Source: Verrucomicrobiota bacterium (GTDB taxonomy: Bacteria > Verrucomicrobiota > Verrucomicrobiia > Limisphaerales > J093). Taken from it: DNA of 64,000 bases. The DNA is taken from positions 1 to 64,000 of the forward strand of contig JAKLFY010000025.1 in NCBI GenBank assembly GCA_022710935.1, in the 5' to 3' direction. The number at the start of each line of letters is the position of its first letter. The stretch's first letter is position 1. The position numbers and the translations under genes were made by a program. Below are positions 1,702-25,538 of the stretch, piece by piece. The notes beneath the pieces are model-generated. The model saw only the letters and a program-made list of their open reading frames with translations, had not been told where the DNA came from and did not search any database.

Positions 1702-2082
1702 TCAGACGTGGCGTGGAGGGGGCGAGGGGGGTCTTTCGAAGCGCTCGAGCCCGTTCTCAGCACGAAGCTCGAAGGAAGCGAAGGCCATCTGGCGGAACAT
1801 GAACGCGCGGGGAGTCTCGCAGATCAGATCGAGTTTGAGGAGGGGCCGTTGCGGCTGTGGTTCGCGCGGGCCGTTCTCTTCCGATTTCTGGCCCTCGGTC
1901 ACGATGTGGCAGAGGACACAGGGGTGGCGGCCGTCGAAGGTCTGATCGATCGCCTCGCGGAACGTCGTGTTCTGTGAGTACCTGACGAACATCGAAACCC
2001 AGGCCACGGACTGCAAGGCCGCCCAGTGCAGGCCCAGAGTCAGGGCCACGATCAACGCCGTGATGACGTGTTTGCCTCTCAT
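1702..2082 (-). CDS. small membrane protein with HPCVLC motif
   Basis: 126 residues from ATG 2082; the frame extends to a TTG at 2100, but ATG gives a better N-terminus (MRGKHVI). One transmembrane or signal helix (VITALIVALTLGLHWAALQSVAW) is followed by an extracytoplasmic segment with FDGRHPCVLCHIVTEGQKS, a CxxC pair beside His residues that could bind a metal. The tail is Glu/Pro/Arg-rich. I recall similar short proteins near copper genes in Verrucomicrobiota and Planctomycetota (recollection, not searched). The neighbours are copper-type, so a small copper-binding membrane protein is the best guess. Confidence 0.65.
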   Translation of the reverse strand: MRGKHVITALIVALTLGLHWAALQSVAWVSMFVRYSQNTTFREAIDQTFDGRHPCVLCHIVTEGQKSEENGPREPQPQRPLLKLDLICETPRAFMFRQMAFASFELRAENGLERFERPPSPPPRHV

Positions 2083-2475
2083 CTGCCTGGCGCGTGACAA
2101 CGATCGTCCCAGGCTCGATCAATGAAGCCGCTGTCTTGGCCTGTGAGGCTGGCGATCAAGGGCGGTGTTCGATGCCTGTTCATACTCGATGCAGGATCAT
2201 TAGCACACCCGCGCCTCATCCGGCTATCGGTGCCGAACCATTCCTTTCATAGGGGGACGTCCGAGGTTCGAGTGTTGTGGACCCGCCAACCTGGCCGTGC
2301 CCGCCGCACAGCACGCCGCGCGGCGTCTTGCCTCCCGACCGTTGCGGGTATGCTCCCTGCGTCGCGCCTCGCCATCCAGCCCTTCCTGCGAAAACAGCAC
2401 CCCTCGGAGTTTCCAGACAGACTCTCAGGCCCGACGCCGATGTCCCCGCTGCCCAGGCTGGATGAGCCCGATGAC
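2083..2475. other. intergenic gap, no gene seen
   Basis: About 390 bases between two minus-strand genes. Six-frame translations here are Arg/Pro-rich and look non-coding, and I see no clear RNA gene, repeat or strong terminator. It must hold the promoter for the gene at 1702-2082, but I cannot point to a convincing -10/-35 pair. Confidence 0.5.
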
Positions 2476-4431
2476 CTACGGATAGACCGAGCGATAGAAC
2501 CGCGCGTGCGCGGCGGGTGGTGGCGTATTGGTGTACTGGAAGACGCCGAGGTCGTCGGCAGCATTGCTGCCCAACTCAGTCCAGACGGCCGAGTCCAAGT
2601 GTTCCGTGAACTCGATCCGGTAGGTCTTGCCTGCGATGCCAAGGAAACTCAGCAGAAAGGAACCGTTGCCGAGGTCAGTGAGCAGGAGGTTGGGAGACGG
2701 GACGGTGTTGGTGGAAGCGCGGACGGTGACGGTGGCGGTAGCCTGGGCGCTGTAGCTGTCTTCGATGGTGTAAGTGAACGAATCGTCGTCCGTGAATCCG
2801 GCAGCGGGGGTGTAGTGAATCCAATCGCCGTCGAGAAGGAGAGAGCCGCCGTGGGCGCTGGTGGGACTCACCAGGACCAACTCGATGGGGTCGCCGTCGG
2901 CATCGGCATCGTTGCTGAGCAACGTGCTGATGAGGACCTTGGTTCCATCGGTCGGGTCCCGTTGAATCGTATCCGCGCCGGCTGTCGGCGGGGTGTTGAT
3001 AAGCTGGGCCGAAGCGAGGGTGGCCGTGGACCCGGTGAAGTTGTCGTCACCCGCATAGCTTGCGCTGACCGCGTGAAGGCCGGGACTGATGGTGGTCAAG
3101 CTGAGCGTGGCGTTGCCCGCGCTGAGGGACGCGGGTGCGCCGGTGTCGGCGCCGTCGAGCATGAACTGCACCATGCCGGTCGGGATGCCTGCGCCTGGGG
3201 CCACAGCGGTCACCTCCATGGTGAACGTCACCGGTTGCCCGGGTGCGGCGGGGTTTGCTGAAGAGCTGAGCCGACTGGAGGTGCTGGCTTTGGTGATGGT
3301 AAGCTGCGCGATCGAGCTCGTGACCGCCACGCCGTTGTCGACCACAACCGAGTAGCCGCCGACGCTGGCATCCTGAACGTTGGTGACCGTGAGGCTGGCG
3401 CCGGTTCCCCAAGAAATGACCTGGGTCTGATTAAAGTACCATTGGTAGGCGAGCGGGGTGCTGCCGGCAGCCACGACGCTGAAGTTGGCGTTGGCGCCCC
3501 GGGCCACCGCTTGACTCTGAGGCTGGGTCGTGATCTTCGGAGGGCCGAAGACGCCGTAATCGGCGATCTCGAGGCCGGCCACCCAGCCGATGCTTGGGCC
3601 GGCGAAACTGCCGCGAGACTGGCCGGCCTGGTCGAAGCGCTGCACGCCGCCATCAGCGGCCTTGATGCCCACGGCGATGATGCCGTCGGCGTCGATGTCG
3701 ATCCCCCACGGGCTGCCCAGGAGGTTGGCGAGGACCGTGGCGGTGCCACCGGAGACTTCGAGGAGCCACTTGGAATCGTACGCGCCGGTAAACAGCTTGC
3801 CGCCATGGACGGCGACGTCGTAGGGGCTGTCGACCTGGCCCCCGGAGATCAGCGTGGTTTGGGAGTGGTCGACGAGGGATACGGAGACGAGGCGGTTCGC
3901 GAGGGCGGACGTCACGACCAGATGCGTACTATCGAGGGTGGCGAGGCCCGCGACGCCGGAGAGCAGGTTGCCCTGGGTCATGATGGTGGAGACGCCGGTG
4001 TCGAGATTGACCTCGAAAAGGGAGTCGACGTCGTCGAGGTTCTTGCCGGTCACATAGAGCCGGCCGTTGGGACCCAACGCGAGGCCCCAGATCTCGCTCG
4101 GGAGGTCGCCGGACAGCGCCAGGGGAGCGACCACTTCCGTGGCGACATCGAGTGCCTGGATGTCGCCGTAGAACTCGCCGATGTAGAGCGTTCCGGACGG
4201 ATGGAGCGCCAGGTCCATCGGGTGGAGGAAATCGCCCCAGACAACCTGTTCGCCGGTGTTGGGATCGAGCCGGACGACCTGCCAGTTGTCATAGTTGGCG
4301 ATGATGATGTCGCCGACGTTGACAAAGAAAGCCCGGGCTGGAAGGGCGGAATTGGCGAGCACGCTGGCGGCGACGAGAGCCAGGACGAGGATCCGCGTGC
4401 GATGAGGTGGTTGTTCCGCTGTTGTTTTCAT
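2476..4431 (-). CDS. secreted beta-propeller / Ig-like multidomain protein
   Basis: 651 residues with a signal peptide (LVLALVAASVLANSALPARA). Residues about 35-295 form an NHL/SMP-30-like beta-propeller, with repeated LDPNTG, MDLALHPSGTLYIG and LALGPNGRLYVTG strands. Then come an immunoglobulin-like domain starting PPKITTQPQSQAVARG (about 297-380), a bacterial Ig-like domain (about 385-480, ending SASYAGDDNFTGS), a cadherin-like domain with NDADADGDPIELVLVSP (about 483-570) and a C-terminal module ending ARFYRSVYP. That last module resembles the one in the adjacent C25 peptidase. It is probably an extracellular adhesin or binding protein. The peptidase gene lies just upstream (21 bases), so the two are likely co-transcribed. 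Confidence 0.88.
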   Translation of the reverse strand: MKTTAEQPPHRTRILVLALVAASVLANSALPARAFFVNVGDIIIANYDNWQVVRLDPNTGEQVVWGDFLHPMDLALHPSGTLYIGEFYGDIQALDVATEVVAPLALSGDLPSEIWGLALGPNGRLYVTGKNLDDVDSLFEVNLDTGVSTIMTQGNLLSGVAGLATLDSTHLVVTSALANRLVSVSLVDHSQTTLISGGQVDSPYDVAVHGGKLFTGAYDSKWLLEVSGGTATVLANLLGSPWGIDIDADGIIAVGIKAADGGVQRFDQAGQSRGSFAGPSIGWVAGLEIADYGVFGPPKITTQPQSQAVARGANANFSVVAAGSTPLAYQWYFNQTQVISWGTGASLTVTNVQDASVGGYSVVVDNGVAVTSSIAQLTITKASTSSRLSSSANPAAPGQPVTFTMEVTAVAPGAGIPTGMVQFMLDGADTGAPASLSAGNATLSLTTISPGLHAVSASYAGDDNFTGSTATLASAQLINTPPTAGADTIQRDPTDGTKVLISTLLSNDADADGDPIELVLVSPTSAHGGSLLLDGDWIHYTPAAGFTDDDSFTYTIEDSYSAQATATVTVRASTNTVPSPNLLLTDLGNGSFLLSFLGIAGKTYRIEFTEHLDSAVWTELGSNAADDLGVFQYTNTPPPAAHARFYRSVYP

Positions 4432-4452
4432 GGTGGATGAGAGGCAGTTGCT

Positions 4453-6726
4453 TCACGGCGTGGTCTGGACTTCGATCCGGTAGAACCGTGGTTGGTTGTC
4501 CGGCCCAGTGTCCTCGTAGACGTTGAGCGGCGGAGTCGCAGCCAGGCCCTGGGCCAGTCGCGCATAGGGACCTGCCGGGTCAGGCGCGTGAAATATCGAA
4601 TACTGCCGGCCCTGAACGCTCGGCCACTCGAGGCGGACGCCGGTCTCCAAACCGCTCCCTCGCGCCGCCCGGAGGCTGAGAACCGAGGCGGGGTCAGTGG
4701 GGCTGGTGCCGGCAACCTGTTCGGCCAAGTCGGTCATGCCATCGCCGTCGGTGTCCTGATCCGGAGACGGGATGGGCTGGTGCCAGGCCAGGTGGGGGTC
4801 GCCGAGCAGGGTGATCTCGTAGTAGCACCAGCGATAGGGCATCAGCCCCGAGGACTCGATCTGACCGACCAGATCGTGCTTCGAGAACTGGTTGGCCACG
4901 CCGAAGTTGGTCTGTCCGTGGGCGAGCAGATGGGCAAAGAAGCGGGTTTGGAACTCACCGCTGTATTTGGACTCGTCCACCGGATCGTACCAGCCGAGGC
5001 GTGAGTTGAAGACAGCGGCGAACGCACCGTGGGCGTTGCGCTTGACCAGCTCCTCGCCGATGGCGTCCGGCGACCACCGGTCGTTGTCGAACTGGCCGAC
5101 GTTGCAGCCCACGCTGTAGGCGAGGAAGGGGAAGGCATTAGTCAGAGCGTCCAGTTCATCGGTGCGAATGCCGCGGCTGGGGATGAGGTGGGAACTCATG
5201 AGAACCTCGTCGTCGCCATGGCCGTTGAAGAGTGCCAGGTGGGGAGAACCGTTCAGCGCGGCCTGGAGGTCGGACTTCGTCCACTGGGGCGTGGTGAAGG
5301 GCCGATCGTCCAGCCACGTCACCTGGCGGCCGGCGAGATAAGGGAGCAAGGGTTCGAACATGTCGCCGCCATGGGCCGGGCCATTCGGGGTGCTCTTGAG
5401 AAACTCGGCCACCAGCAGAAAATGGTTCGCTTGCGGGTGTCCAAACGTTTCATAGCGGAGGCATTTGTCAACAAAGGTGGCCACCTCCTCGGGGGTATCC
5501 ACCGGGGCGCGACCGACAAAGACCTCGGCCAGGAGGTCTACGTCGCCGCTCCCGGAACCGTCGGTGGGTTCCCCCCAGCGGTCGTCGCCATCGGCATTCC
5601 AAGGGCCGTCCAGGCAGGCATAGTACAGATCGCAAGGGATGCGTGAATCGATCTCCGGGAGGTTCATGAACGCGTGCGCGTAACGGCAGGGGACAACCGT
5701 GGCGTCGCCGCCGAGCAGAACATAGGTGATGCCCCAGTCGGCGTAAGCCGTGCGGATATAGTTGCGGATCCTCTCGGGGATATCGGCACCCGGCTGGGTG
5801 CTCACAATCGTCTCGACCGTTTCGACTTTCACGGCCAGCCCACTTTGGGCTTTGCGATCGACCAAGGGCTGAAAGGCGGAGACGAGGTTGCTGCGGGTGA
5901 CCAGCAAATAGTCGAGAGTTCCCCCGGCCCTGCCCATGAGAGACGGTGCCGCATAGGTCTGGAGCAGGGCCGGGTTGTCCACCCAGGCCGCCACGCGGTC
6001 CCGGGCGCGGAGCTGGGCGCGTCGCGGGGCGATCGGCGGCTGCGGCTGAGCCGACTCGGCCTTGGGCGTCAGGACGACCTGAAGACTCGGTGTGAACTGT
6101 AACTCGCCTCGCGCTGGCCGGTATCGCACCGGGTAGACCCGGATGACCGCGAGGTCGTAGCCCGCCAGACGCTGGACCGCCACGAGCTCCGCCCCCACCG
6201 CCGGATAGAGCCCGTCGGAACCGTAAATCGTGGGGTCAGGTTGGTCGGCCCTCGCCAGGTCCAGCATCCGCACACTCGGTGTGGTGACCGGTAATCGGCC
6301 GTAGTCAACCTGCCAGGTGCCGGGGATGGTCGTCGCAGGCTGGGGAGCGAGAGCCTCGACCTTCTCGACCCTTCCGCCGGGCGGGAGAAGCAGACGGATG
6401 GTTCGGAAGGGCAACACCGGAGCGCCGACACGCTGGGCCACGTCGCAGCCGTCCATGCGCACCTGAATGTACGCGCTGTGCTCGCCTGCGGATTGTTGCA
6501 GCCGAGGGAACTCGAAGTCGCATCTCGTGGTGATCGACGGGGCGGTGGTTTCGGCCTGGGCAACGGTCGGGCACAGCCAAGCGGCCGCCAACACCAGCCA
6601 AAGGCCAGAGGTCCGTCGATCGGCGGAAGGCGCTGGTGGCAGTGCGTTGGCGTTGACCTGAGTCGGATCGCGCGCGTCCGCGATCTCCGCTTGCGTCTGC
6701 CGCTCCGCGTTAAGAGGTTGGATCAT
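4453..6726 (-). CDS. gingipain-type C25 family cysteine peptidase
   Basis: 757 residues. A hydrophobic leader (GLWLVLAAAWLCPTVAQA) lies about 40 residues in, so the true start may be later than ATG 6726. A propeptide-like N-terminal region precedes the peptidase domain (about residues 265-640), which has YVLLGGDATVVPCRYAHAF, a catalytic-His segment LFNGHGDDE (near 504) and a catalytic-Cys segment YSVGCNVGQFDND (near 539). These are the C25 His/Cys pair. The C-terminus has a calcium-type DTDGDGMTDLAEQ strip followed by a beta module ending PRFYRIEVQTTP, like the next gene. It is probably secreted and may process or degrade surface proteins. No Bacteroidetes-type sorting domain is recognisable. 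Confidence 0.9.
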   Translation of the reverse strand: MIQPLNAERQTQAEIADARDPTQVNANALPPAPSADRRTSGLWLVLAAAWLCPTVAQAETTAPSITTRCDFEFPRLQQSAGEHSAYIQVRMDGCDVAQRVGAPVLPFRTIRLLLPPGGRVEKVEALAPQPATTIPGTWQVDYGRLPVTTPSVRMLDLARADQPDPTIYGSDGLYPAVGAELVAVQRLAGYDLAVIRVYPVRYRPARGELQFTPSLQVVLTPKAESAQPQPPIAPRRAQLRARDRVAAWVDNPALLQTYAAPSLMGRAGGTLDYLLVTRSNLVSAFQPLVDRKAQSGLAVKVETVETIVSTQPGADIPERIRNYIRTAYADWGITYVLLGGDATVVPCRYAHAFMNLPEIDSRIPCDLYYACLDGPWNADGDDRWGEPTDGSGSGDVDLLAEVFVGRAPVDTPEEVATFVDKCLRYETFGHPQANHFLLVAEFLKSTPNGPAHGGDMFEPLLPYLAGRQVTWLDDRPFTTPQWTKSDLQAALNGSPHLALFNGHGDDEVLMSSHLIPSRGIRTDELDALTNAFPFLAYSVGCNVGQFDNDRWSPDAIGEELVKRNAHGAFAAVFNSRLGWYDPVDESKYSGEFQTRFFAHLLAHGQTNFGVANQFSKHDLVGQIESSGLMPYRWCYYEITLLGDPHLAWHQPIPSPDQDTDGDGMTDLAEQVAGTSPTDPASVLSLRAARGSGLETGVRLEWPSVQGRQYSIFHAPDPAGPYARLAQGLAATPPLNVYEDTGPDNQPRFYRIEVQTTP

Positions 6727-6812
6727 AGGTCAGGCAATTCCGATCACCCCATCCAACCGACGACCCGCCTGGGACGGATGAGCCTGCGCGTCTTCCCGAG
6801 CGAGTCCGGCCA

Positions 6813-7355
6813 CTATCCAATGGTCACGTTTTCGATGCGGCAATCCCCAATCACCACGGTGACTTTCGCGCCTGGTTTGACGATCCCTCGGGAGTTGCCG
6901 AAGAAGATGTAATAGATGCGGCCGGCCGCCAGTCTCTGCGCGGTTTGGCGCAACGGGCCGAGCTTCGGCGTGGTGGGCACCCCGAGCTTGTTGCCGCTCG
7001 CCTCATCGATCAGGTAGGGCTTCGCCTCGGCCTTGAGCAGCGGGGCTGCCTTCTCCGGGTCGATCACCTTGTATCGAAAGTCGACAAAGTAGCCCTCGGC
7101 CGACAGGCGCAGGCTGGTGATTTCGATCCCCCAGGTCTTGGCCAACCGCGCGACGGGGTCGGCCGTTGTCGACGGGGGTGCCACGGGCGTCTCGTCTGCG
7201 GCCGCAGAATGAGTCTGACAGCAGGAGGCCGCGGCAACGGGCACGCTGGCCTGCTTCTCACCTGCATCTGCTGCGGCTGACATAACTGCCACACCCAGAA
7301 GGATGGCAGCGATCGCACTGGTGGCGAGGGAGTGGAGTTGATTTGCGGTGTTCAT
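6813..7355 (-). CDS. secreted protein with DFRYKV domain (copper-locus paralogue 1)
   Basis: 180 residues from ATG 7355; an alternative ATG is at 7379, and the longer frame to 7526 overlaps the upstream oxidase gene. A signal peptide (ATSAIAAILLGVAVMSAAADA) is followed by a short SCCQTH segment that could bind metal. The conserved C-terminal domain contains WGIEITSLRLSAEG, VDFRYKVIDPEKAAPLL and VTVVIGDCRIENVTI. The same domain ends the protein at 23234-24181, so the pair brackets the efflux/oxidase genes. The family has no function known to me. Its context suggests a periplasmic or surface accessory of copper handling. Confidence 0.8.
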   Translation of the reverse strand: MNTANQLHSLATSAIAAILLGVAVMSAAADAGEKQASVPVAAASCCQTHSAAADETPVAPPSTTADPVARLAKTWGIEITSLRLSAEGYFVDFRYKVIDPEKAAPLLKAEAKPYLIDEASGNKLGVPTTPKLGPLRQTAQRLAAGRIYYIFFGNSRGIVKPGAKVTVVIGDCRIENVTIG

Positions 7356-7458
7356 CGGGTTCGGTTGAGGAACGGGCATGGTGATTGTTGGGTAAAGGCC
7401 ACGGGCGGGAGCGCTGATGCGCCCACCCGCCCGCGGCGTGAGGGCTCGGAGGTTCTGT

Positions 7459-8400
7459 TTAAGGCAACGAGAGTGTGCGTCGGTCGTAGAACGACGCACC
7501 GGTCGCGAGCGGCCCCAGGCGCGCATCGCGGGTCTTGAGAGACGGTAGGTTGACCGCGTTTTCGACCCGGGGATACGGATAGGGGCGTCCGTCTTCGGCG
7601 ATCAACTCGAGGTGATGGCCACTCACCACCGGAATGCGTTCGTCGTAGCAGGCATTCAACATGCGCACCAGCGTGGGTGCAGTCAGCCCGCCGGGGATGG
7701 TGCCCAGCGTGAGGGGTTCACCGTTCAGCAGGTAGACCTCGGGAACCGAATGGATCATGCTCTTGATGGTCGTGCCATAGGTGCCAGCCTCGACCGCCGC
7801 GTGAACGTCGAAGTCGATTTCACCGAAGATCCAGGCGACCTCCGAGCCATAGGAAACGCCTGGATAGGCCTCCTGGCCGGCAAGGGCGGGCGCGTCCTTC
7901 TTGAGCAGGCCATAAAGGCCCATCTGGACCTGCAGCGCAGAATGGGTGCCGCTGAAGTAGAGGTAGGTGCCGGGGGTGACGTTGTTCCACGTGTAAGTGA
8001 CCGAGGCGCCGGGCTCCGTCTGTTTGACGAAGGACCGCGCCCGGGTGCGGCCTTGTGGATCGGTGAACGTGACATGTTCTGCAGGTCCGCCCCGCAGGTA
8101 CCCGTTTTGGTTGGGGATGACCAACGAGATGGGCACAGAGAGGTCGTTCTGCAGCGTGATGTTCAAGACCGTGTCAGTGGGAGGGACGACCAGCGCCGGC
8201 CCCGGTGAGGTCACCGGGCCGCCGTCGAGGGCGAATCCCCACATGTGGACGTTGGCGGTGGCTCCGCCGGGCAGGGGGACTTCCTTGGTGAAGGCCGCGG
8301 CGCGAAGGGTGAAGTCCGCCGACCAACCGGAGGTGGCCGCCAGCAGGCAGCCGCCGCCGATCAGGGCGGGAATCATGGATTTGAGTATCGAACGATTCAT
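7459..8400 (-). CDS. multicopper-oxidase-like cupredoxin protein, short form
   Basis: 313 residues from ATG 8400 (MNRSILKSMIPALIGG signal peptide). The first cupredoxin domain has PGPALVVPPTDTVLNITLQN and GTYLYFSGTHSALQVQMGL. That is where classical enzymes carry HCH-x3-H-x3-GM, but here the Cys and most His ligands are absent. The second domain begins VPEVYLLNGEPLTLG and reaches GHHLELIAEDGRPYPYP, then ends early. It therefore looks like an oxidase fold with a degenerate type 1 copper site, possibly structural or copper-binding only. It sits between another oxidase-like gene (56 bases upstream) and the DFRYKV-domain gene downstream. Confidence 0.82.
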   Translation of the reverse strand: MNRSILKSMIPALIGGGCLLAATSGWSADFTLRAAAFTKEVPLPGGATANVHMWGFALDGGPVTSPGPALVVPPTDTVLNITLQNDLSVPISLVIPNQNGYLRGGPAEHVTFTDPQGRTRARSFVKQTEPGASVTYTWNNVTPGTYLYFSGTHSALQVQMGLYGLLKKDAPALAGQEAYPGVSYGSEVAWIFGEIDFDVHAAVEAGTYGTTIKSMIHSVPEVYLLNGEPLTLGTIPGGLTAPTLVRMLNACYDERIPVVSGHHLELIAEDGRPYPYPRVENAVNLPSLKTRDARLGPLATGASFYDRRTLSLP

Positions 8401-8456
8401 AGGGTTTGTCCTGTGTCTGAGTCTTTGGATTCTCGTGAGCACTCCGGGATAGGCGG

Positions 8457-9782
8457 CTAGGGTGTCGGATGAGCCGCGATGAGCAGGAACGTCATCATGC
8501 CCCCGCCAAAGATGTCGTTGTTGCAGAGTTCCTTCTCGTTATGCGAATGCCACATATACATGAAGCCCGCGACGGGGTTGAATCCGCCCTGGCCGGGGGG
8601 CAGGGTGCCGAGCACACCCAGGAATGGGCTGCCCGAATACATCTGGCCGAAGGTCAGGTCCTGGTCGGTCGGCAACTTGACTGGGAAGGGTTTGCCGTGG
8701 TCTGGGGCGTATTCGCCCGGCGCCAGGGGATCCCCGGGTGCATGGCCGTAGATGTCCCAGCCCAGCTTTTCGCCCGTCCAGGTGAACAGGGCGTCGTAGG
8801 TGCTGCCTGGGCTCGACGGGACGGTGAAGACCTCGTAGCTAAGGTCGGCGCCCACTGTGCCGCCGGTCTGACCGGCGGTGGAAAGGAACCGACCGTCGCG
8901 CGCGAGGACTCTGGCATGGTTGCCGTGGTGGTGGAATGGATGCGAATCCCGACCGGCACCGATGACGCGCATGAGGACCCTGTCGGTCGCGTGGATCTTG
9001 ACCAGCGCGTCATAAGGCTGATGGGGCAGCCAGGGCGCGTTGACCGGCAGCACCGTGTCCGGTCCGGTTCGTCCGTTGATGAACCAGTAGACAGGGAACC
9101 GTTTGGTCATGTCCACCTGGACGGGCAGGCCATCCCGCACCTGCGCCTCGACCTGGTCGTGGATGCGTTCATCCACCTCGGTGAGGAAGAACAGGAACTC
9201 GTGTTCGTACACGCTGTCGGCATGGGCGTAGGCCTTCCGGTTGGCGCTTCCTTCGGCGGCGACGAATCCGCTGGGCCGCACGATCAGTGCGCCGACCAGG
9301 CCCATCTCAGTCTGGAGGTCAGACCTCGTGCCGCTCTCGTAGAGATAGGTGCCCGGCTCGGCGGCGGTGAACTCATAGGTCACAGGCCCGCCCGGAACGT
9401 CGGGAGTGCCTGCCGGGGCCTCCTGGGTCAGTGCGCCGCCGCTCCCGCCCGAGGCCGTCACCCCGGCCTGGCCCGGGAAGAGGATCGACACCGGGACGGG
9501 CAGTTCGTTGCGGAGGGTGACGGTGACCGTATCACCCTGGTTCACGATGAGGGTCGGGCCTGGGTATTGGGCCCGCCCGGCGCCACTGGCGTAGCCCCAG
9601 AAGTAAACGCTGTTTCCTTCTGCGGTGCTGAGGTGGCCCGCGCGCGCGGTGAGTTCGAAGGCGGGGCCCGTGATCCCGTCGATGTCGTGGACGAGATGGG
9701 CAGCCTGGAGGGTTCCGGTCAGGGCGGCCAGCAGGATGGCGCCAGCAGCCAGACTCCCTTTGAGTATATTGTAGTTTTTCAT
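8457..9782 (-). CDS. multicopper oxidase domain protein
   Basis: 441 residues from ATG 9782 (MKNYNILKG), with a signal peptide ending near TLQAAH. The cupredoxin signature PGPTLIVNQGDTVTVTLRNE is near residue 75. The position of the first HCH motif reads YLYESGTRSDLQTEMGL, so no type 1 site is there. The second half keeps a His cluster SHPFHHHGNHARVLA (near 285), and the C-terminus has MWHSHNEKELCNNDIFGGG, where Ser replaces the usual Cys of HCH. Type 2/3-like His ligands thus appear kept while the type 1 Cys is missing or moved to the nearby C of ELCNN. It is secreted, and the giant oxidase fusion lies directly upstream. Confidence 0.87.
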   Translation of the reverse strand: MKNYNILKGSLAAGAILLAALTGTLQAAHLVHDIDGITGPAFELTARAGHLSTAEGNSVYFWGYASGAGRAQYPGPTLIVNQGDTVTVTLRNELPVPVSILFPGQAGVTASGGSGGALTQEAPAGTPDVPGGPVTYEFTAAEPGTYLYESGTRSDLQTEMGLVGALIVRPSGFVAAEGSANRKAYAHADSVYEHEFLFFLTEVDERIHDQVEAQVRDGLPVQVDMTKRFPVYWFINGRTGPDTVLPVNAPWLPHQPYDALVKIHATDRVLMRVIGAGRDSHPFHHHGNHARVLARDGRFLSTAGQTGGTVGADLSYEVFTVPSSPGSTYDALFTWTGEKLGWDIYGHAPGDPLAPGEYAPDHGKPFPVKLPTDQDLTFGQMYSGSPFLGVLGTLPPGQGGFNPVAGFMYMWHSHNEKELCNNDIFGGGMMTFLLIAAHPTP

Positions 9783-9832
9783 GTTCACAGTGTTCTTTCT
9801 TGGATCGAGATGTCTGTTGAGCGCTGGTTGCA

Positions 9833-15800: not shown

Positions 15801-16426
15801 AGGGGATTGCCAAAGGCATCGAAGAGGATCGGACCGCCGCCCAGCGGATCGAGAATGATGACGCGGAAGCCCGGCAGACCCGGCTCCGCGGCGTCAGGAA
15901 CGTTATTGATCGAGTTATGGTCCTCGAAAACCAGGACGGAGATCTGCGCGGTGGGGATTTCGTGCCGGTTCAACAGGACGGTCACCGGCTGGCCGGAGAC
16001 TGAGTGGGCAGCCGCGTCCTCGACCAGTGCAACGCCCCCCATCGAATAACCGTCCGCCATCACCGACAGGTAGTAACGCTGTTCGGGATCGGCGGGGTCG
16101 TCAGGAACGCTCACCGGGAAATTCCCCGACGCGGCGCTGACTCCCGTCCGCGTCACCGGTGCGTGGCTCTTGTGAATGACCAGCGAAATGGAGTCATTGA
16201 CCGGAGTGCCCGGCAGTTTCTGGACCGTGTTGTCTTCCTCGACCAACCACCGGAACCCGGGCGCGGGCGGTAACGTCGTGATCGGGGCGCGGTCACCATC
16301 GAGGACGGTGACGTTCCAAGTGAGGTTCTGTCCTTGCACGACAAACGCGGAGCAGAGGACTGCCAGCAGGGCAGCCCACTTCGAGTTACGCCGTCGTGGT
16401 GTGAGGGGTTGGTTTTTCATAGTCAT
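9833..16426 (-). CDS. giant SdrD-like / beta-helix / multicopper oxidase fusion
   Basis: 2197 residues, with signal peptide AALLAVLCSAFVVQG. The visible order is: several Ig or SdrD-B-like domains, including VLVFEDHNSINNVPDAAEPG (about 175), SVFYDDDGDGFRDGIDVLG (about 440) and GVVFYSTTRAEDDPR (about 630); a right-handed beta-helix at about 1190-1710 starting TFTSIQEAVDAANPGDLVLV with many NNxIxGN-type turns; a calcium-type DTDGVDTDGDGIVDND strip; then a multicopper oxidase at about 1845-2197 with HTVHFHGF and YHCHMEATEHMEMGM, a full type 1/type 3 copper motif. ATG 16420 is an alternative start. It is probably exported to the cell surface as an adhesive scaffold carrying an oxidase. Substrate unknown: copper, iron, manganese or phenolics are all possible. 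Confidence 0.9.
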   Translation of the reverse strand: MTMKNQPLTPRRRNSKWAALLAVLCSAFVVQGQNLTWNVTVLDGDRAPITTLPPAPGFRWLVEEDNTVQKLPGTPVNDSISLVIHKSHAPVTRTGVSAASGNFPVSVPDDPADPEQRYYLSVMADGYSMGGVALVEDAAAHSVSGQPVTVLLNRHEIPTAQISVLVFEDHNSINNVPDAAEPGLPGFRVIILDPLGGGPILFDAFGNPLGTTYNADGSVAVLGDSKLYTDANGRLLIKNITPGKFGVQVIPPTGTDWNGGHGSVKVGGQWIQTSTIEGTLTIDAWVKANEPAVWVEGFGIGFYHVFFGFVDQSKLPWVVNPPPAHPSSVTVTGQLRYNHFGRPPQNQMFAVGPEVPQAWIGLNEVPPIPQAGIGPIGGVGPGLYAAPTNPDGSFTISNVPVGTYQLVSWDKPLDSIFGFNTIVVTNNAANVNDLGSVLIYNWFGALEGSVFYDDDGDGFRDGIDVLGSSVETGTLEAGIPNMAVNLRFRDGRIYLATVTDADGSYEFAEVFPFFKWLVAEVDFARFKATGLTAVTDEGGHITDNGLASGNYMTIYPWDGKRNPQPQYAVDPVTGVADITQPVDAFGNPAGTPSLWRTEQGPSLTEAMHLFLNQNNRVDWGKQNYPAGENGGISGVVFYSTTRAEDDPRLAVGDPWEPGVPRVQVALYATVPDPAVPADTLEAAPEGGATITRSLIKDQSGDGLITFADVDNPPLGWADGGAMGPEDIDNGGAAGVFDLNDAIQVVWSDSWDDTVDESGGTLGAIQLNPPYVPTNPDGTIPPGAKAIVGSDFYSTWNQVRPGVFDGGYAFGDVEPGTYIVQAVPPPGYQIQTEESVNVFFGDAYKPSALVLPPPIVGDYHQVGDVLTLFPENDADGDGIAGVAPTFAGKWRPLADRKLVEVRDGKNTAADFHVYTDVPKAARVVGFVLNDLTAEFNAFSPVFGEKGSPGWLPISFRDWKGNEVARTYCDEYGTYNAMLPSSYTVNAAAPSGIVPNMLTVILNDPTMPDPANPTSGDRVPDPNHNPNYSVSPSTWMFWAGSVSYLDTPIVPVASFVGHPNNQVDVEPLDHTPVIKSVQADGQTGPYITSPSQSITITAAGTVSVPDPTSLGYGSDNTIDRDYGFGATEPTVYINGVALPEGQVTLNGDGTVTITVGASLAAGQTGQLTVRRADNGLLTPIGVTLTHAGPGTVRQVYPRDSGVIPDNVTTFTSIQEAVDAANPGDLVLVAPGNYYENVVLWKPLRLQGAGAGTYATGAGSVIHANPVPTERAQQWIDKIETVLGGNPFEANSTPGIIVIGNSLLPNSGSFAATPSRIDGFTISGSTTGGGIEVYHLATNLRISNNRIIGNQGAFGGGITLGMSDALGTLYDNSNVTIQSNQILKNGSINAAGGIAVFNGSENYKILDNIIAGNFSRGNGGGIGHEGVSRGGLIANNQIVNNEVFYGLAVGGDGGGIYIGGQLAAGGRSSGSGSVTILNNLIQGNLAGSGNGGGIRLAGVNGDDVFASGNDNNWYAVNILNNMIVNNVAGYAGGGISLQDAIRVRIMHNTVANNQSTATARAAFAPGALDSTPQGAGIVSHLHTLALTQVLPGGQGNKSYSDPDLYNNIIWHNKAFSWNGTTQTLVPADAAPYGPYKDVRVAVPPAIEPNALRLTLRNCLVSPGSFFAGSGNITTDIDPFVASYLNSLQAAAVIDEAGNNIAVRFPETGLYPPNGATLRGDYHLIGTGAAATSPVNNGGNIPQAPAGLAYDFDRETRPAQRDIGADEFNSTPFVNPAWPTVPLNGPPSTGPAPVATPTPPVGPGVLPVFEPIPADTDGVDTDGDGIVDNDHVFKRVSGGDGFGKMADGNELYQFGFSDLTAVDPALVMSAGMLKAEIPAPTLTVKEGQKFYLDLSNVGMVMRPDLFDPHTVHFHGFPQAASIFDGEPFASVAINVGATLRYFYNIVEPGTYIYHCHMEATEHMEMGMLGTLYVTPKQNYLPVGTALASLPPGKGTTHQAGYKYAYNDGDGSSYYDVEKELQFSAFDRNFHEQHILVQPLPFAALDESYPMINGRGYPDTVNPDDITNATVGDILGIGAEYPSQKITSRIVATAGQRVLLRLSNVSLSDFHTVTVLGIPMRVIAKDAKLLRGPDPDGAGSLVGKDLSYETTSFTFGGGETADVILDTTGVTPGTYFLYDSRLNHLTNDQEDFGGMMTEIIIQ

Positions 16427-17070
16427 CCTGTTTCGAAGTCAAGGAGTTGCGTCTATTGGGAGCGTGTTATGGGGTTGCAGGGAAAGGTGGCCCCCCGAGA
16501 GGGCCGAGGTGTGAGGCCTGGCGGACCGATGCGGGTCGAGACGTGAGGACGCCTCGACCGGCGCACCATCCGGGTCCCGAGGTTTCAGGTGGTTGTTGAG
16601 TTGGCATACAGAGTGTCATGACCATGGTGCCACAGTACATAGTGCGGAGCTGGAGCCGCAATCGGAGGGGCTCTGAACGTGCCATCGGGCGGGACCGTAG
16701 GGTGCCCTGGGAGAACTCGGCTTTGCTGGCGCGCATGAGTGCACCTCTCGATGACATCGGTTCCGCGTCCTTCAAAAGTTGGCGAGAAGTGCGCGCTAGG
16801 GCACTGGTGAGGTCGCGCGAGGACTGGCGGCGGAAGACTCCTTCCCACGCCGCGGAGGAGTACGACAGGGGGACCTGCTTGCTCCGGGGAGTCTCCTGGG
16901 TGAAGGCGTCGGCGCTGCGGCGCGCGCAGGGCAGAATGAGAGTGTAGGAGGCACCGCCGCTGAGCAAGCGGTTCAGGAAGATATGGGTCATATTCCGCAT
17001 AACGCCATGAACTACCGGCTCTCCGCCTCGCGGACAATCGGGGGGGGGCCTCAAGTTATCGTCAGGCTGG
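16427..17070. other. intergenic region with one palindromic repeat
   Basis: About 640 bases between the pump gene and the giant oxidase fusion. Frames here are Arg/Pro/Ser-rich without recognisable domains. It contains one repeat copy (16727-16798) and a run of nine G near 17041. It presumably carries the promoter for the oxidase genes, but I cannot define one. Confidence 0.5.
16727..16798 (-). repeat. palindromic-end repeat, GCGCGCAT type
   Basis: On the minus strand this reads as a diverged copy of the element at 31910-31981: both have AGCGCGCA at one end, CTC(A/G)CCAACTT, GACGCGGA(A/G)CCGATG and GGTGCACTCATGCGCGC at the other. The terminal inverted repeat is imperfect here. It is intergenic, between the cusA-like gene and the oxidase fusion. 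Confidence 0.7.
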
Positions 17071-17146
17071 CGCCTAACCCGCATAGCAGTCGTCTTGCGA
17101 AGTCTGACCGCCCTGTGCACTGACGGAGGGTGAAGAAACATGCGGG

Positions 17147-17153
<7 letters not shown>
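17071..17153. repeat. palindromic-end repeat overlapping cusA stop
   Basis: A perfect 14-base inverted repeat, CGCCTAACCCGCAT at 17071-17084 and its complement at 17140-17153, encloses about 55 bases of unrelated interior. The right arm contains the TAA stop codon of the minus-strand cusA-like gene. The terminus is a variant (AACCCGCAT) of the AGCCCGCAT ends seen elsewhere in the window. In the transcript the arms could pair into a long stem after the stop. Confidence 0.75.
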
Positions 17154-20437
<3,284 letters not shown>

Positions 20438-20472
20438 AGAGCATCTCCCAATTCACCCCTCACGCCTCACCC

Positions 20473-23031
20473 TCACGGCTCAACTTCCTCGCCGCAGGTC
20501 AACATCTTGGAGCCGTAGAACGGGTTCCGCAGGGGACCTTTGGCCTGGAGCCAAACGCCGGGGCGAGGGGCCATCGGACAGTGATAGAGCTTGAATCCTC
20601 CGACGGCTGACGCCTCGGTTTTCAGGAGCTTCGCCAACTCGGCCGCGTTGGAGCTCAAGGCGAGGAACCGAGTCCGAGCATCCTCGAGGTCGTGGGGCGG
20701 CGGGCTTTGCGCCAGGGTAGTCAGTTTGCGGGTGAGCGCTTTGACGCGGTCGCGAGCCGGGTAGGCGTTTCCTAGGGTCGCCAGTGCGCCAGGCAGTTTG
20801 CCCAGATGCGCGCGGTATTGTTCGACGCTGTCGGCGACCAGACCCTGACTCATGCCGTCGACGACGAAGAGGAAGCCTTTGATCGCCTGCTGCCGTTGGG
20901 CGGCCAGCTCGGGGTTGCCGGCCGGAGGGGGCGATGACGGCACCGCCGACGCATTGACCAGACTGGCCGAGAGCTCGGCCAGCCGGGTACCGAACGCCAT
21001 TGCCGCCTGGTCGTAATGGGCTATCCCACGGCGCCTTGCCGCCGCGTTTGGGGCCGCGCTCGCGCTGGTGGGCGCGGGCGCCAACTCGCCGCCGGCCGGC
21101 GGGAGTTGCGGATGCATGTCAGCGTTGATGGGCGCGACCGCGGGGTCGAGGCCAGCCGGCGCGAGCTGCGAATGTTCGGTGGCGGCGCGGGGGGGCTTCG
21201 CCGCCAACGCCGGTGTCGCTTTGGCGGCGCGGGGGGGCGCGGATACTTCCTCGCCGCAGGTCAACATCTTGGAGCCGTAGAACGGGTTCCGCAGGGGACC
21301 TTCGGCCTGAAACCACAGGCCCGGCTTGGGGGCCATGGGACAGAAGAACACTTTGGCGGAGGCAAACGTCGTTTCCTGGCTGCGTAGCCGTTGCACCAGA
21401 TCGACGGTGTTCGTGCTGAACGGCAGGAACATTCTGCGCGCGACCTCGAGGTTGGTCAGCTCCGCCCAACGTGAGGTCGCCGGCAGGCTTTGGATCACCT
21501 CGTGCCAAGGATGGTCTTCCGGAAATGCCTCGGTGAGCGCTTGGGCGAGAGCGGGGAGGCTGGCGACGTGGGGCTTGAGCCGATCCAGGTCATCCGCTGC
21601 GAGGGTTGAGCTGATCCCATGGGCGACAGCGAGGAAGGCAGCCAGGGCTCGGTGCTGGACGTCCGTCAGCTCCGGCGCAGGTGAGTCTGGTGACTCGGTG
21701 CAGCAATGACCGGTTCCGTTCGACGAGGCGTGGTCGGCGTGGGCCATCGCGGCGTTGACGCCGCCGGGCTGCGGGTCTGGGGTTCCCGGCACGGTGCTGC
21801 GGTTGAACTGCGCCTGCGCGTCGATCAGAACGTTGCCAGAAATGACGACGCGGTCGTTCTCCTCGAGGCCGTCGAGGACCTCCCAGTGGTCATCACCTGG
21901 CCGGCCGAGGGTGACGCGCCGCATTTCGTAGGCCCCGCCCCCTTTGTCGAGATAGGCATAGGCGTGTTCGCCCGGGAACAGCAGGGCCCCACGCGGGATG
22001 GTGAGCACGTCCGGGATCTGCGCGCGGAGTCGGCCCTCGGCATACATCCCGAGGTGCAAGCTCCGACGCGGCTGCCCGGGGTTGCCGACCAGCGGGTTGG
22101 CGACGTCGGCGCGCACCTTCACGGTGCGGGTGGTTTCATTGAGCGTTGGCTCGATGACGGAGATGGTGGCGTGAAACACCTGGCCGGGGAGGGAGGGAAC
22201 AGTGACATCGACAGGTTGGCCTGGTTCGAGCCACGCGAGCTGATGTTCGTACACGTCGAAGCGGAACCAGAGCACGGAACAGTCGACGATCGTGAACAGG
22301 CGGTCGCCCTCGGCCACGTACTGACCGTCGAACACGTTGCGTTCGGTCACGGTGCCCGTGTGGGTCGAGAGCAGGTCATTGAAGTAGGGATCCGCCTCGA
22401 CCCGCTCGCGCGCGGCGAAAGGCAGGTCTCGTGCCCCGACGCCCGGGACCGGCGTGTGTCGGCTGCTTCCCCCCGGTGTCGAGGCCATCATCGCAGCCTG
22501 TGTAGCCTTGTCGGTGATGCGGTCCCGGAAGATGTAACGCCGCGTCTGGAAGACGAGGTCGGGGCTGTAGATCGTGGCCAGGACCTGGCCAGCCTGAACG
22601 CCCACACCAGCCGAGGCCACCGCGACGGCGTCGATCCGGCCCGCGGCAGGTGCGGCGAGGATGGTTTTGCGGGTGGTGTCCGCTTCGAGCACACCCGCGA
22701 CGCGTACGGCCCGATGGAGTGACCGCCGCTTCACCTCATCGGTCTGCACGTTCATGACCGTGACGCTGCTCGCGCTGAGCGTCACCAGGTCGTCCGTATG
22801 GCCAAGGCCCGACTCGCCTTCATAGATGGGCGTGAGGTCCATGGCGCAGATGGTGCATTGGCCCGGTTGGTCAGACTTGATCCAGGGATGCATCGAGTCC
22901 TGGTAGTACAAGACCTTTCGTTCTGCCCGGGAGTGGGAGGGGAGAGTCAGTTGCTGCCAGAGCGCGTAGCCGCCGGCGCCCAGCGCCACCAGCAACAGGC
23001 TCCCCGCCAGGTTCTTCAATGGGTTTTTCAT
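20473..23031 (-). CDS. cusB: CusB-type RND adaptor with duplicated C-terminal metal module
   Basis: 852 residues from ATG 23031 (another in-frame ATG at 23043), about twice the usual adaptor length. An N-terminal anchor (LAGSLLLVALGAGGYALW) is followed by a heavy-metal-binding segment with MHP and CTICAMDLTPIYEGE. Then comes the membrane-fusion part: lipoyl-like AAPAAGRIDAVAV, a hairpin and beta-barrel up to about residue 430. The C-terminal half holds two DUF3347-like helical modules, each ending in F/H-CPMAP and GPLRNPFYGSKMLTCGEEV, at about 600 and 850. Their last part is encoded by 58 identical bases. Each CPMAP/TCGEEV pair could bind copper. It should link the RND pump to an outer-membrane channel and deliver metal. 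Confidence 0.93.
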   Translation of the reverse strand: MKNPLKNLAGSLLLVALGAGGYALWQQLTLPSHSRAERKVLYYQDSMHPWIKSDQPGQCTICAMDLTPIYEGESGLGHTDDLVTLSASSVTVMNVQTDEVKRRSLHRAVRVAGVLEADTTRKTILAAPAAGRIDAVAVASAGVGVQAGQVLATIYSPDLVFQTRRYIFRDRITDKATQAAMMASTPGGSSRHTPVPGVGARDLPFAARERVEADPYFNDLLSTHTGTVTERNVFDGQYVAEGDRLFTIVDCSVLWFRFDVYEHQLAWLEPGQPVDVTVPSLPGQVFHATISVIEPTLNETTRTVKVRADVANPLVGNPGQPRRSLHLGMYAEGRLRAQIPDVLTIPRGALLFPGEHAYAYLDKGGGAYEMRRVTLGRPGDDHWEVLDGLEENDRVVISGNVLIDAQAQFNRSTVPGTPDPQPGGVNAAMAHADHASSNGTGHCCTESPDSPAPELTDVQHRALAAFLAVAHGISSTLAADDLDRLKPHVASLPALAQALTEAFPEDHPWHEVIQSLPATSRWAELTNLEVARRMFLPFSTNTVDLVQRLRSQETTFASAKVFFCPMAPKPGLWFQAEGPLRNPFYGSKMLTCGEEVSAPPRAAKATPALAAKPPRAATEHSQLAPAGLDPAVAPINADMHPQLPPAGGELAPAPTSASAAPNAAARRRGIAHYDQAAMAFGTRLAELSASLVNASAVPSSPPPAGNPELAAQRQQAIKGFLFVVDGMSQGLVADSVEQYRAHLGKLPGALATLGNAYPARDRVKALTRKLTTLAQSPPPHDLEDARTRFLALSSNAAELAKLLKTEASAVGGFKLYHCPMAPRPGVWLQAKGPLRNPFYGSKMLTCGEEVEP

Positions 23032-23191
23032 GAGCTTCGACACACGTGCATGCCCCTCAGGGCCGAGAATGCGCAGTCAGCGACTTTGCCCCCGTACGGC
23101 CTCATGGGTCGCCGGCCTGCTTCATTCGTCGTGTGTGGTTCTTTAGATCGCCCACCGCTCATTGGGAATCGGGGGGGGGCTGAACGTGTCA

Positions 23192-23216
23192 TCGGGGCAG
23201 GTCCTAATCGCCCCGA
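23192..23216. terminator. hairpin after the 23234-24181 gene
   Basis: TCGGGGC and GCCCCGA form a 7-base GC stem with an 11-base loop, 18 bases past the minus-strand stop. No U-tract follows, so intrinsic termination is doubtful; it may only pause or stabilise the transcript. A run of nine G lies next to it near 23171. Confidence 0.3.
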
Positions 23217-23233
23217 CGGTGGCCAGGGGGCGG

Positions 23234-24181
23234 TTACTCCACACGGATGTTCGCGATGTGGAGATCGCCGATCACCACACTGACCAAGTCGCCGGTTTGC
23301 AGTGCCCCACCCTGGTTGGCGAACCAGGTGGAGTAAGTGCGGCCCGCCTGGTCGAGGTGCCGGGCAAAGTAATAGTCACCAATCTGCTGGACGTTCCGCG
23401 GAGAGATTCTTCGGCCATCCTGGGTCAGGAGGTACGAAGGTCCTCCTTCGCGCCCGACCACCGCCGCCTTGTCCGGGTCCACGACTTTGTAACGGAAATC
23501 CAGCGCGGTGCCGCCCGCGGTCAAGCGCAAACTCGCGACCTCGACGCCGTATTCCACTCCCGGATTGCTGGAAGTGGGCGGGACGGGCGGTGCCGACGTG
23601 TCTGTCACGCCTGAGCCAGCACCTTGATTCTCCTCTATCCCCTCACGCGCTGAGCGGTTCGGCACCGCCTGCATCCCCGCCGCCAAGGCCTCTTCCGCCT
23701 GGTCTTGCGGTTGCGCGTGCGCGGAGAGGGCATCCGGTGTCGCCTGCCTGCGGGGATCGAGTCTGCCCGCCGGTTGCTGCCCCAGCGCGGCAGGGGCGTT
23801 ACCCGTCGTGGCTGCGCGAGGGGTGCCCGGCACGGTCGTTTCCCGCGTGCTCCGCCCGGCTGCTGCCTTCGTCGGAAAGACTCTCCCCTGTGCCTGCCCC
23901 GCGCGTGGCGCTGCGGGCGCAAAGTCCCCTCGCCCTTCTGGCACTGGGTCGACCTGGGAATAGCCCCCGATCGGGACTTCCTCTGGCAGTGGGTCCGATT
24001 GGCTGAAAATGAGCACGCCGAACACGATGGCGCCTACTGGCATCATCCGCAGGGCAAGCCCGATCGTCGAAAAGGGGCTGCCCCGCGCTGGCGGCGGAAT
24101 GGCGGGCGGAAAGGTGGAACGGGCGCGAGTCATGGAATGTGACGGTTTCTGAGCATTCATTTGCGAACTGACGCAACCCAT
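23234..24181 (-). CDS. membrane-anchored Pro-rich protein with DFRYKV domain (paralogue 2)
   Basis: 315 residues from ATG 24181, chosen because GGGAGGA lies six bases upstream; the frame runs further but looks non-coding there. One transmembrane helix (MMPVGAIVFGVLIF, about residues 45-60) follows a Pro-rich cytoplasmic tail. A long Pro/Ala/Arg-rich linker comes next, then a C-terminal domain with VEYGVEVASLRLTAGG, LDFRYKVVDPDKAAVV and VSVVIGDLHIANIRVE. This domain matches the secreted protein at 6813-7355. It is first in the copper gene series. Possible role: anchored partner or sensor for the same unknown ligand as its paralogue. Confidence 0.8.
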   Translation of the reverse strand: MGCVSSQMNAQKPSHSMTRARSTFPPAIPPPARGSPFSTIGLALRMMPVGAIVFGVLIFSQSDPLPEEVPIGGYSQVDPVPEGRGDFAPAAPRAGQAQGRVFPTKAAAGRSTRETTVPGTPRAATTGNAPAALGQQPAGRLDPRRQATPDALSAHAQPQDQAEEALAAGMQAVPNRSAREGIEENQGAGSGVTDTSAPPVPPTSSNPGVEYGVEVASLRLTAGGTALDFRYKVVDPDKAAVVGREGGPSYLLTQDGRRISPRNVQQIGDYYFARHLDQAGRTYSTWFANQGGALQTGDLVSVVIGDLHIANIRVE

Positions 24182-24947: not shown

Positions 24948-25538
24948 ATGACGCCAACGCAAGTCATGGCGGCCGAGCACCGGCTCATCGAGAATGTGGT
25001 CAAGGCTTTGGGCCGGGTCGCCATTGACGTCGGAAAAGGGCGACCCGTTGATGCCAGCATGCTATCCACGGCGGTGGAGTTTCTGCGCCTCTATGCGGAC
25101 ACGCTCCATCACGGCAAGGAGGAGACGTTCTTCTTCCCCGTGCTGGTCAAGCGCGGCGTGCCAGCCAAAGGGTGCCCAATCGAAGGGCTGAATCACGAGC
25201 ACGAGAAAGGCCGGGTGCTGGTCCAGGCCCTGGCCGAGCACACATCGGCGTACCAACGAGGTCAGCCTGAAGCACCGGAAGCCCTACGACAGACACTGCG
25301 CGGGCTGCTGGATCTGTATCAGAGCCACATATGGAAAGAGGACGCGATGGTCTTTCCGATGGCAGACAGGATTCTGACCGCGGACGACCAGCAGGAGCTG
25401 AGCGCGCAGTTCGTGGTCGTGGACCGCGCCGTCGGCCTCGACACCATCGCCCGGTTGGAGGGCTTCGCCCGCAGTCTTAGCTCGACGGCGCTGGCTCCCC
25501 GGCCGAGTCAGCCGGCCGCTTGCCATTGCGGCGGCTGA
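24948..25538 (+). CDS. hemerythrin-like HHE domain protein
   Basis: 196 residues. The di-iron ligands fit the HHE family: H11 (AAEHRLIE), H54 or H55 with E58 (LHHGKEETFF), H83 and H85 (NHEHEKGR), and H127 with E131/D132 (YQSHIWKEDAMVFP). The C-terminus ends CHCGG. Hemerythrin-like proteins bind oxygen or NO, or repair iron-sulfur centres (YtfE/RIC). An NsrR-type regulator gene follows at 26008, which favours an NO-stress role. The gene is intact although flanked by decayed genes. Confidence 0.88.
   Translation: MTPTQVMAAEHRLIENVVKALGRVAIDVGKGRPVDASMLSTAVEFLRLYADTLHHGKEETFFFPVLVKRGVPAKGCPIEGLNHEHEKGRVLVQALAEHTSAYQRGQPEAPEALRQTLRGLLDLYQSHIWKEDAMVFPMADRILTADDQQELSAQFVVVDRAVGLDTIARLEGFARSLSSTALAPRPSQPAACHCGG

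Follow-up and report, generated by a model that had tools for sequence, protein, structure and literature searches.

What do three neighbouring multicopper-oxidase-like proteins, one of them joined to a giant surface scaffold, form together at a single bacterial locus? This question is raised by a minus-strand gene series in a Verrucomicrobiota bacterium (GenBank assembly GCA_022710935.1, contig JAKLFY010000025.1), of which positions 1–64,000, here called the window, were analyzed as one stretch of 64,000 nucleotides. The original prediction, made from the letters of the window, had proposed a copper and surface-oxidase system with a CusA/CusB pump, three oxidases, two DFRYKV-domain proteins, a CxxC membrane protein, a C25 peptidase and a beta-propeller/immunoglobulin (Ig) protein. 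Every gene named there lies on the minus strand, and the CusA/CusB, C25 and multicopper-oxidase-like families pass or fit family scans; the gene observation is confirmed and its interpretation supported in part. Our analysis indicates that the core of the system is probably one secreted, surface-displayed multicopper oxidase of three different subunits, with a trinuclear site distributed over two genes.

Predicted copper ligands are divided between two genes

The cupredoxin part P6C occupies residues ~1790–2197 of a giant secreted protein (9833–16426, minus strand), behind a scaffold of ~1780 residues (residues 1 to ~1780), which bears out the predicted fusion of one oxidase-like protein to a giant surface scaffold. 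It is followed by P5, the second two-domain cupredoxin subunit (8457–9782, minus strand), and by P4, the third, which lacks conserved copper ligands (7459–8400, minus strand). Judged from their sequences, the three are paralogous two-domain cupredoxin chains related to the type C two-domain multicopper oxidases, "type C" denoting a type 1 copper in domain 1 (PMC3192119). A scan of named genomes with five P5 orthologues returned 153 relatives, and 80 loci were kept, their flanks being checked by profile searches.

Domain 1 of P6C carries a full type 1 set together with four trinuclear histidines, in the pattern H..H.H and HCH....H....M. Its first motif, DPHTVHFHG (10694–10720, minus strand), provides the predicted type 1 ligand His1905 and the predicted trinuclear ligands His1908 and His1910, and all three histidines are invariant in the loci that cover the motif (76/76). 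The second motif, YHCHMEATEHMEMGM (10538–10582, minus strand), contains the predicted trinuclear ligands His1950 and His1952 and the predicted type 1 ligands Cys1951, His1958 and Met1963; HCH is invariant in 77/77 loci, and the type 1 His and Met in 78/78. Both motifs are lost from P6C domain 2, where HTV and YDS stand at the homologous places in the window. In P5, it is domain 1 that has lost both motifs and domain 2 that retains them: HPFHHHG (8922–8942, minus strand) holds the predicted trinuclear ligands His301 and His303 (and His298), with HPxHxH invariant in 81/81 loci, and MWHSHNEKE (8529–8555, minus strand) holds the predicted trinuclear ligands His429 and His431 but no type 1 Cys, with HSH, including the Ser between the histidines, invariant in 71/71. 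P4 shows no copper-ligand motif among the aligned loci. The possibility that the window P4 is a truncated pseudogene was rejected, as its orthologue in genome G009 ends at the identical place. Beside HSH, Glu433 and Glu435 of P5 are likewise invariant in 71/71 loci and are candidate metal-substrate or proton-relay residues.

Across 81 loci, P6C alone thus carries two of the trinuclear motifs, P5 alone carries the other two, and P4 carries none. Even at a P5 identity of just 39%, in Cupriavidus metallidurans CH34 and in Paraburkholderia, the ligands persist. An undivided type C chain in the same class, encoded by a single gene (G081 and G093), has HTIHWHG, YHCHVNVNEH, HSLHIHG and VHDH. Because the ligands are divided between P6C and P5, neither alone can be a complete oxidase, and the predicted "three oxidases" make better sense as subunits of a single enzyme. 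In two-domain multicopper oxidase trimers the trinuclear site is formed by two protomers (PMC13151041); since the type C site sits between protomers in this way, P6C domain 1 and P5 domain 2 would together form exactly one site.

A conserved five-part block

The core of the cluster is the series scaffold, P6C, P5, P4 and DFRYKV protein, and the copper pump is not part of it. This five-gene order recurs with few exceptions wherever the contig is long enough, over the 80 loci and at least nine phyla: Verrucomicrobiota/Lentisphaerae, Planctomycetota, Acidobacteriota, Myxococcota, Bdellovibrionota, Pseudomonadota, Nitrospirota, Hydrogenedentes and Desulfobacterota-type bacteria, with Gallionellaceae, Sideroxydans, Nitrospira, Thiobacillus and Geobacter among the groups that gave P5 matches. 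P4 directly follows P5 in 80/80 loci, and the DFRYKV protein is present in 70/80; eight of the ten misses are contig ends and two, L053 and L081, are real absences. L081 is also exceptional in that its scaffold lies after P4. Scaffold and P6C are usually separate genes, being fused in the window and in 10/80 loci (L024–L026, L028, L037, L040, L046, L053, L054 and L076).

Within the phylum, P5 is rare (cut-off E <= 1e-20), occurring in 3/388 sampled genomes and in one genome of the same family from another sample. Strong matches to P6C, P5 and P4 are found in exactly the same 3/388 genomes, always adjacent, and exceed 340 bits, as compared with 62–77 bits for the next-best matches. In all four phylum genomes P6C precedes P5, and P4 and the DFRYKV protein follow; the scaffold precedes P6C except in G249, whose contig starts within the P6C gene, so that the scaffold position lies outside it. 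The C25 peptidase comes next in 3/4 of these genomes. The neighbourhood search suggested alongside the original prediction finds the oxidases and the DFRYKV protein conserved together, the opposite of what would have refuted that prediction, and CusBA nearby in few loci.

Evidence for one three-subunit complex

In the phylogenetic tree, each of P6C, P5 and P4 has a clade of its own, those of P5 and P4 being sisters (support 0.97) and the P5 clade itself has moderate support (0.74). The scaffold is fused to P4, not to P6C, in C. metallidurans CH34 and Paraburkholderia (L119). At the CH34 locus (L118; NC_007974.2, 1331452–1356945), whose genes come from script-based open reading frame (ORF) calling, P4 and the scaffold are one protein of ~2700 residues. 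Single-chain fusions of P6C, P5 and P4 with each other were found in none of the 80 loci, and the fusions present involve the scaffold only.

AlphaFold2 (AF2) was run on the L026 locus as one chain, with the three genes in one frame and stop codons read as glycine, together with 39 likewise joined rows. The resulting model has a mean predicted local distance difference test score (pLDDT) of 80.4 and a predicted template modelling score (pTM) of 0.84 over 1199 residues, while the two joining linkers fall below a pLDDT of 50. Such a pTM over 1199 residues would be unexpected without defined placement of the subunits, suggesting one assembled body; the prediction thus supports P6C, P5 and P4 being combined in a single body. 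Foldseek ranks factor V, ceruloplasmin, factor VIII and MnxG first by E-value for the fused model, and the nearest solved relatives are the two-domain oxidases 3g5w, 3gdc, 7rab and 2zwn. The P5 part superimposes on 2zwn with a Z score of 29.6 and 2.5 Å over 271 residues (VIA-align), a comparison whose listed matches concern the P5 part only and have no bearing on the others.

Several observations weigh against this assembly and its assigned function. The AF2 chain was created by reading through stop codons, and its global superposition on ceruloplasmin and MnxG is poor (template modelling score about 0.2, root-mean-square deviation about 34 Å). The poor superposition is expected, however, if P5 rather than P4 is the partner of P6C domain 1, as the ring order would then differ from the gene order; a ring order of this kind is what the predicted ligands would imply. 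Interface covariation is slightly enriched for P6C domain 2 with P4 domain 1, but the controls are equally high. Furthermore, homologues occur in the anaerobe-rich Geobacter and Desulfobulbaceae, which is odd for an O2-dependent enzyme, and the evidence on the substrate is a single proteomics study in a different phylum.

Alternatively, P6C, P5 and P4 could be co-expressed but independent, P6C acting as a type 1 electron carrier, P5 as a copper-binding protein and P4 as a structural protein, with no joint trinuclear site. The type 1 site of P6C is complete by itself, and the orphan His pairs would be able to bind copper. Nevertheless, P5 keeps exactly the four histidines absent from P6C, and vice versa, invariantly over at least nine phyla, and an electron carrier would have no need of the HFH and HCH pairs. 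Together with the obligatory adjacency of the genes and the pTM of the fused model, these features make independent proteins unlikely, and we retain the three-subunit oxidase as the probable reading.

Scaffold, DFRYKV protein, peptidase and other neighbours

The scaffold part of the giant protein contains SdrD_B, carboxypeptidase-regulatory and beta-helix domains, and polysaccharide-lyase-like parts too; Ig/cadherin extensions occur on P4. The P6C protein of L033 (1644–4094) has a PAP2/vanadium-haloperoxidase-like domain in front of it (PF01569, E 1.9e-5, short of the cut-off), and a similar arrangement was seen by eye in G411 (C3, 49142–51583).

Both DFRYKV proteins of the original prediction are confirmed (6813–7355 and 23234–~24160, minus strand), and the 7.5 Mb genome contains no further copy. 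The first, P3, is a small secreted protein with a predicted Ig-like beta sandwich, well ordered in its AF2 model (pLDDT 92.8). Foldseek gave weak Ig-like matches only, none with E <= 0.001, and no PDB sequence was matched in a profile search. A role as copper chaperone was considered and rejected: conserved His/Cys ligands were looked for in 47 sequences, none of which holds an invariant or nearly invariant His or Cys, and for this reason the protein may rather be a structural adaptor.

A peptidase had been expected as a partner, and it does recur. Where the downstream sequence is longer than 3 kb (57 loci), the DFRYKV gene is directly followed by a subtilase in 38/57, by a C25 peptidase in 5/57, by neither in 14/57 and never by both; the subtilase representative matches PF00082 with E 8.6e-47. 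The C25 (gingipain-like) peptidase of the window (4453–6726, minus strand; PF01364, E 2.1e-53, 182.3 bits against a cut-off of 23) gives way to the subtilase in most other phyla. That proteases of two unrelated families replace each other here suggests that proteolytic cleavage of the secreted parts is important. The window C25 protein was also compared with PorU, the sortase of the type IX secretion system, and the assignment was rejected (NCBIfam equivalog, 46.9 bits against a cut-off of 420).

Next to it lies a secreted NHL/Ig-domain protein (2476–4431, minus strand), identified by the family scan, of which a ~32–34% identical homologue directly follows C25 in G009. The gene described as a beta-propeller/Ig protein is therefore real, and the propeller itself rests on a weak NHL match (E 5.5e-4). 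The small membrane protein with a CxxC motif (1702–2100, minus strand) has a coding-like GC pattern, and its membership of the block is uncertain; a homologue in G202 (42%, E 1e-16) lies 3.4 kb past CusA. In other loci, SCO1/SenC and cytochrome genes are found downstream (about 20 loci, mostly Pseudomonadota), as is NosL (about seven loci). Loci L102, L103, L074 and L080, from Desulfobulbaceae and relatives, have NosL neighbours, some together with genes of LolD-type ATP-binding cassette transporters.

The CusBA pump is a local addition

At the other end of the series are a CusA-type resistance-nodulation-division metal pump (17147–20437, minus strand; TIGR00914, 1102.8 bits against a cut-off of 701.45) and a CusB-type adaptor (20473–23043, minus strand) with HMBD, HlyD_D23 and two C-terminal metal-site-like repeats (TIGR01730, 112.3 against 94.9). 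The two repeats end in FYGSKMLTCGEEV, resemble domains of the LIC13259/LIC11441 family and are possible extra metal sites. The second DFRYKV protein, whose start codon is uncertain, precedes the CusB–CusA pair, and the window, L025/G202 and L040 are the only loci where this arrangement adjoins the block; in L081, a divergent CusBA pair lies about 6 kb from the block. CusBA is thus a local, lineage-specific add-on, and the description of the whole cluster as a copper-pump system does not hold. A promoter and terminator scan of the gap of about 720 bp between CusA and the giant gene gave no match, and the ORF at 16467–17141 within it, which has no family match and a flat codon-position GC, is unlikely to be a gene. 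A hemerythrin-like ORF was recognized by eye on the plus strand immediately upstream of the series (24948–25538).

Proposed mechanism and function

The ancestor of P6C, P5 and P4 was probably the single chain of a homotrimeric type C two-domain multicopper oxidase, in which each trinuclear site is placed between one subunit's domain 1 and its neighbour's domain 2; after triplication, copper would have been retained at only one of the three interfaces. Of the trinuclear histidines, four would come from P6C domain 1, which would also hold the type 1 copper, and the other four from P5 domain 2, and P4 would close the ring without copper. The giant scaffold would hold the enzyme at the cell surface, with the DFRYKV protein as a putative structural adaptor; the subtilase or C25 peptidase may mature or release the secreted proteins, and SCO1 or NosL, where present, may load copper. 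The reaction would be a one-electron oxidation of a metal or mineral coupled to reduction of O2 to water, with Fe(II) as the most likely substrate, then Cu(I) or Mn(II). In the lineage of the window, CusBA would add copper export. On balance, we lean towards a widespread, unrecognized class of heterotrimeric multicopper oxidase with its own giant scaffold, a "ceruloplasmin in three pieces" with a two-gene trinuclear cluster and a copper-free third paralogue closing the ring, acting in extracellular metal or mineral oxidation.

As to function, we would place metal or mineral oxidation first, Cu(I) oxidation or detoxification second and matrix cross-linking third. An oxidase of Fe(II), possibly Mn(II), serving extracellular electron transfer or lithotrophy is a plausible but tentative assignment. 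It agrees with the response of Slit_1812–1818 in the iron oxidizer Sideroxydans lithotrophicus ES-1 (three cupredoxins, SCO1, a cytochrome and small proteins), which reach higher levels on solid magnetite than on Fe(II)-citrate (PMC12016527), with the matches in Gallionellaceae, Sideroxydans, Nitrospira, Thiobacillus and Geobacter, and with the downstream cytochrome genes. However, the ES-1 genes are tied to the family by layout and description rather than by alignment, and the block is also found in myxobacteria, Methylocaldum, Paraburkholderia and Verrucomicrobiota, which are not known iron oxidizers. Periplasmic or surface copper detoxification by a Cu(I) oxidase with CusBA export would explain why CusB–CusA and a DFRYKV protein adjoin the block in the window, L025/G202 and L040, why SCO1 or NosL genes accompany it elsewhere and why it is present in C. 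metallidurans CH34. This reading appears rather doubtful, as the pump adjoins the block in few loci of one group only, SCO1 and NosL equally fit plain copper loading, and a giant scaffold and a peptidase are untypical of CueO/CopA systems. Least probable is a laccase-like oxidase that, anchored to a giant adhesin, would cross-link or modify polymers of the surface matrix: the SdrD_B, polysaccharide-lyase-like and beta-helix parts and the Ig/cadherin extensions of P4 would suit it, but the SCO1 and cytochrome neighbours indicate redox metabolism.

Comparison with known systems

Like the type C two-domain oxidases, such as 3g5w from N. europaea and the metagenomic laccase 2zwn, which are also the nearest solved structures, the block has two cupredoxin domains per chain, with type 1 ligands in domain 1 (P6C), and a domain 2 with an HxH and a Cys-less H-x-H motif (P5). 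The known enzymes, by comparison, are homotrimers with all motifs in each chain and three active sites, whereas the block has its motifs spread over two genes and a third paralogue with none; this division of ligands speaks against a homotrimer with three equivalent copper interfaces. The six-domain proteins ceruloplasmin, MnxG and MofA/OmpB share six cupredoxin domains and one trinuclear site in total with the block, but are single chains, whereas the block is encoded by three separate genes in each of 80 loci. The manganese oxidase complex MnxEFG is likewise a multi-protein multicopper oxidase, in which MnxG alone forms the six-domain oxidase core and MnxE and MnxF are small accessory subunits. 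Six-domain multicopper proteins exist in prokaryotes, and in bacterial ones the type 1 copper has been reported in domain 2 (PMC3600357). As for CusBA copper/silver efflux, the window CusA and CusB are clear members and merely local neighbours of the oxidase block.

In known multicopper oxidases the trinuclear site is contained in a single chain or shared by copies of the same chain, and our search of the openly available literature found no report of such a site built from two different proteins. If correct, the reading would add a new type of quaternary arrangement to the multicopper oxidases, and the block would be an intermediate, surviving today, that links the homotrimers of two-domain chains to proteins with all six domains in one chain, ceruloplasmin and the clotting factors among them. 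It would predict the failure of single-gene tests of any of the three "oxidases", and it flags an obligatory five-protein set, two members of which have no assigned function, over at least nine phyla, including tractable bacteria such as C. metallidurans CH34.

The closest precedent in layout is the Slit_1812–1818 cluster, whose "three tandem MCO genes" (multicopper oxidase genes) had been noted earlier (PMC5566968) and whose published distribution is mainly Burkholderiales, Anaeromyxobacter and Steroidobacteraceae (PMC12016527, PMC5566968). By layout and description it has three tandem cupredoxin genes, the third enlarged and without multicopper oxidase motifs, accompanied by SCO1, a cytochrome and small proteins. 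The block is laid out in the same way in the Sideroxydans locus L041, where P4 is the enlarged motif-less member, and L056 matches too. The published genes, however, are described as separate uncharacterized cupredoxins, without a subunit model, a scaffold or a link to DFRYKV proteins, and our reading would explain as subunits of one enzyme a set of genes with a response to solid magnetite in an iron oxidizer. A matching gene set had thus been seen in ES-1, and the cluster itself is not wholly undescribed. In the literature searched, however, there is no mention of an active site divided between two proteins, of a three-subunit enzyme, of the links to the scaffold and the DFRYKV protein or of how widely the family is spread.

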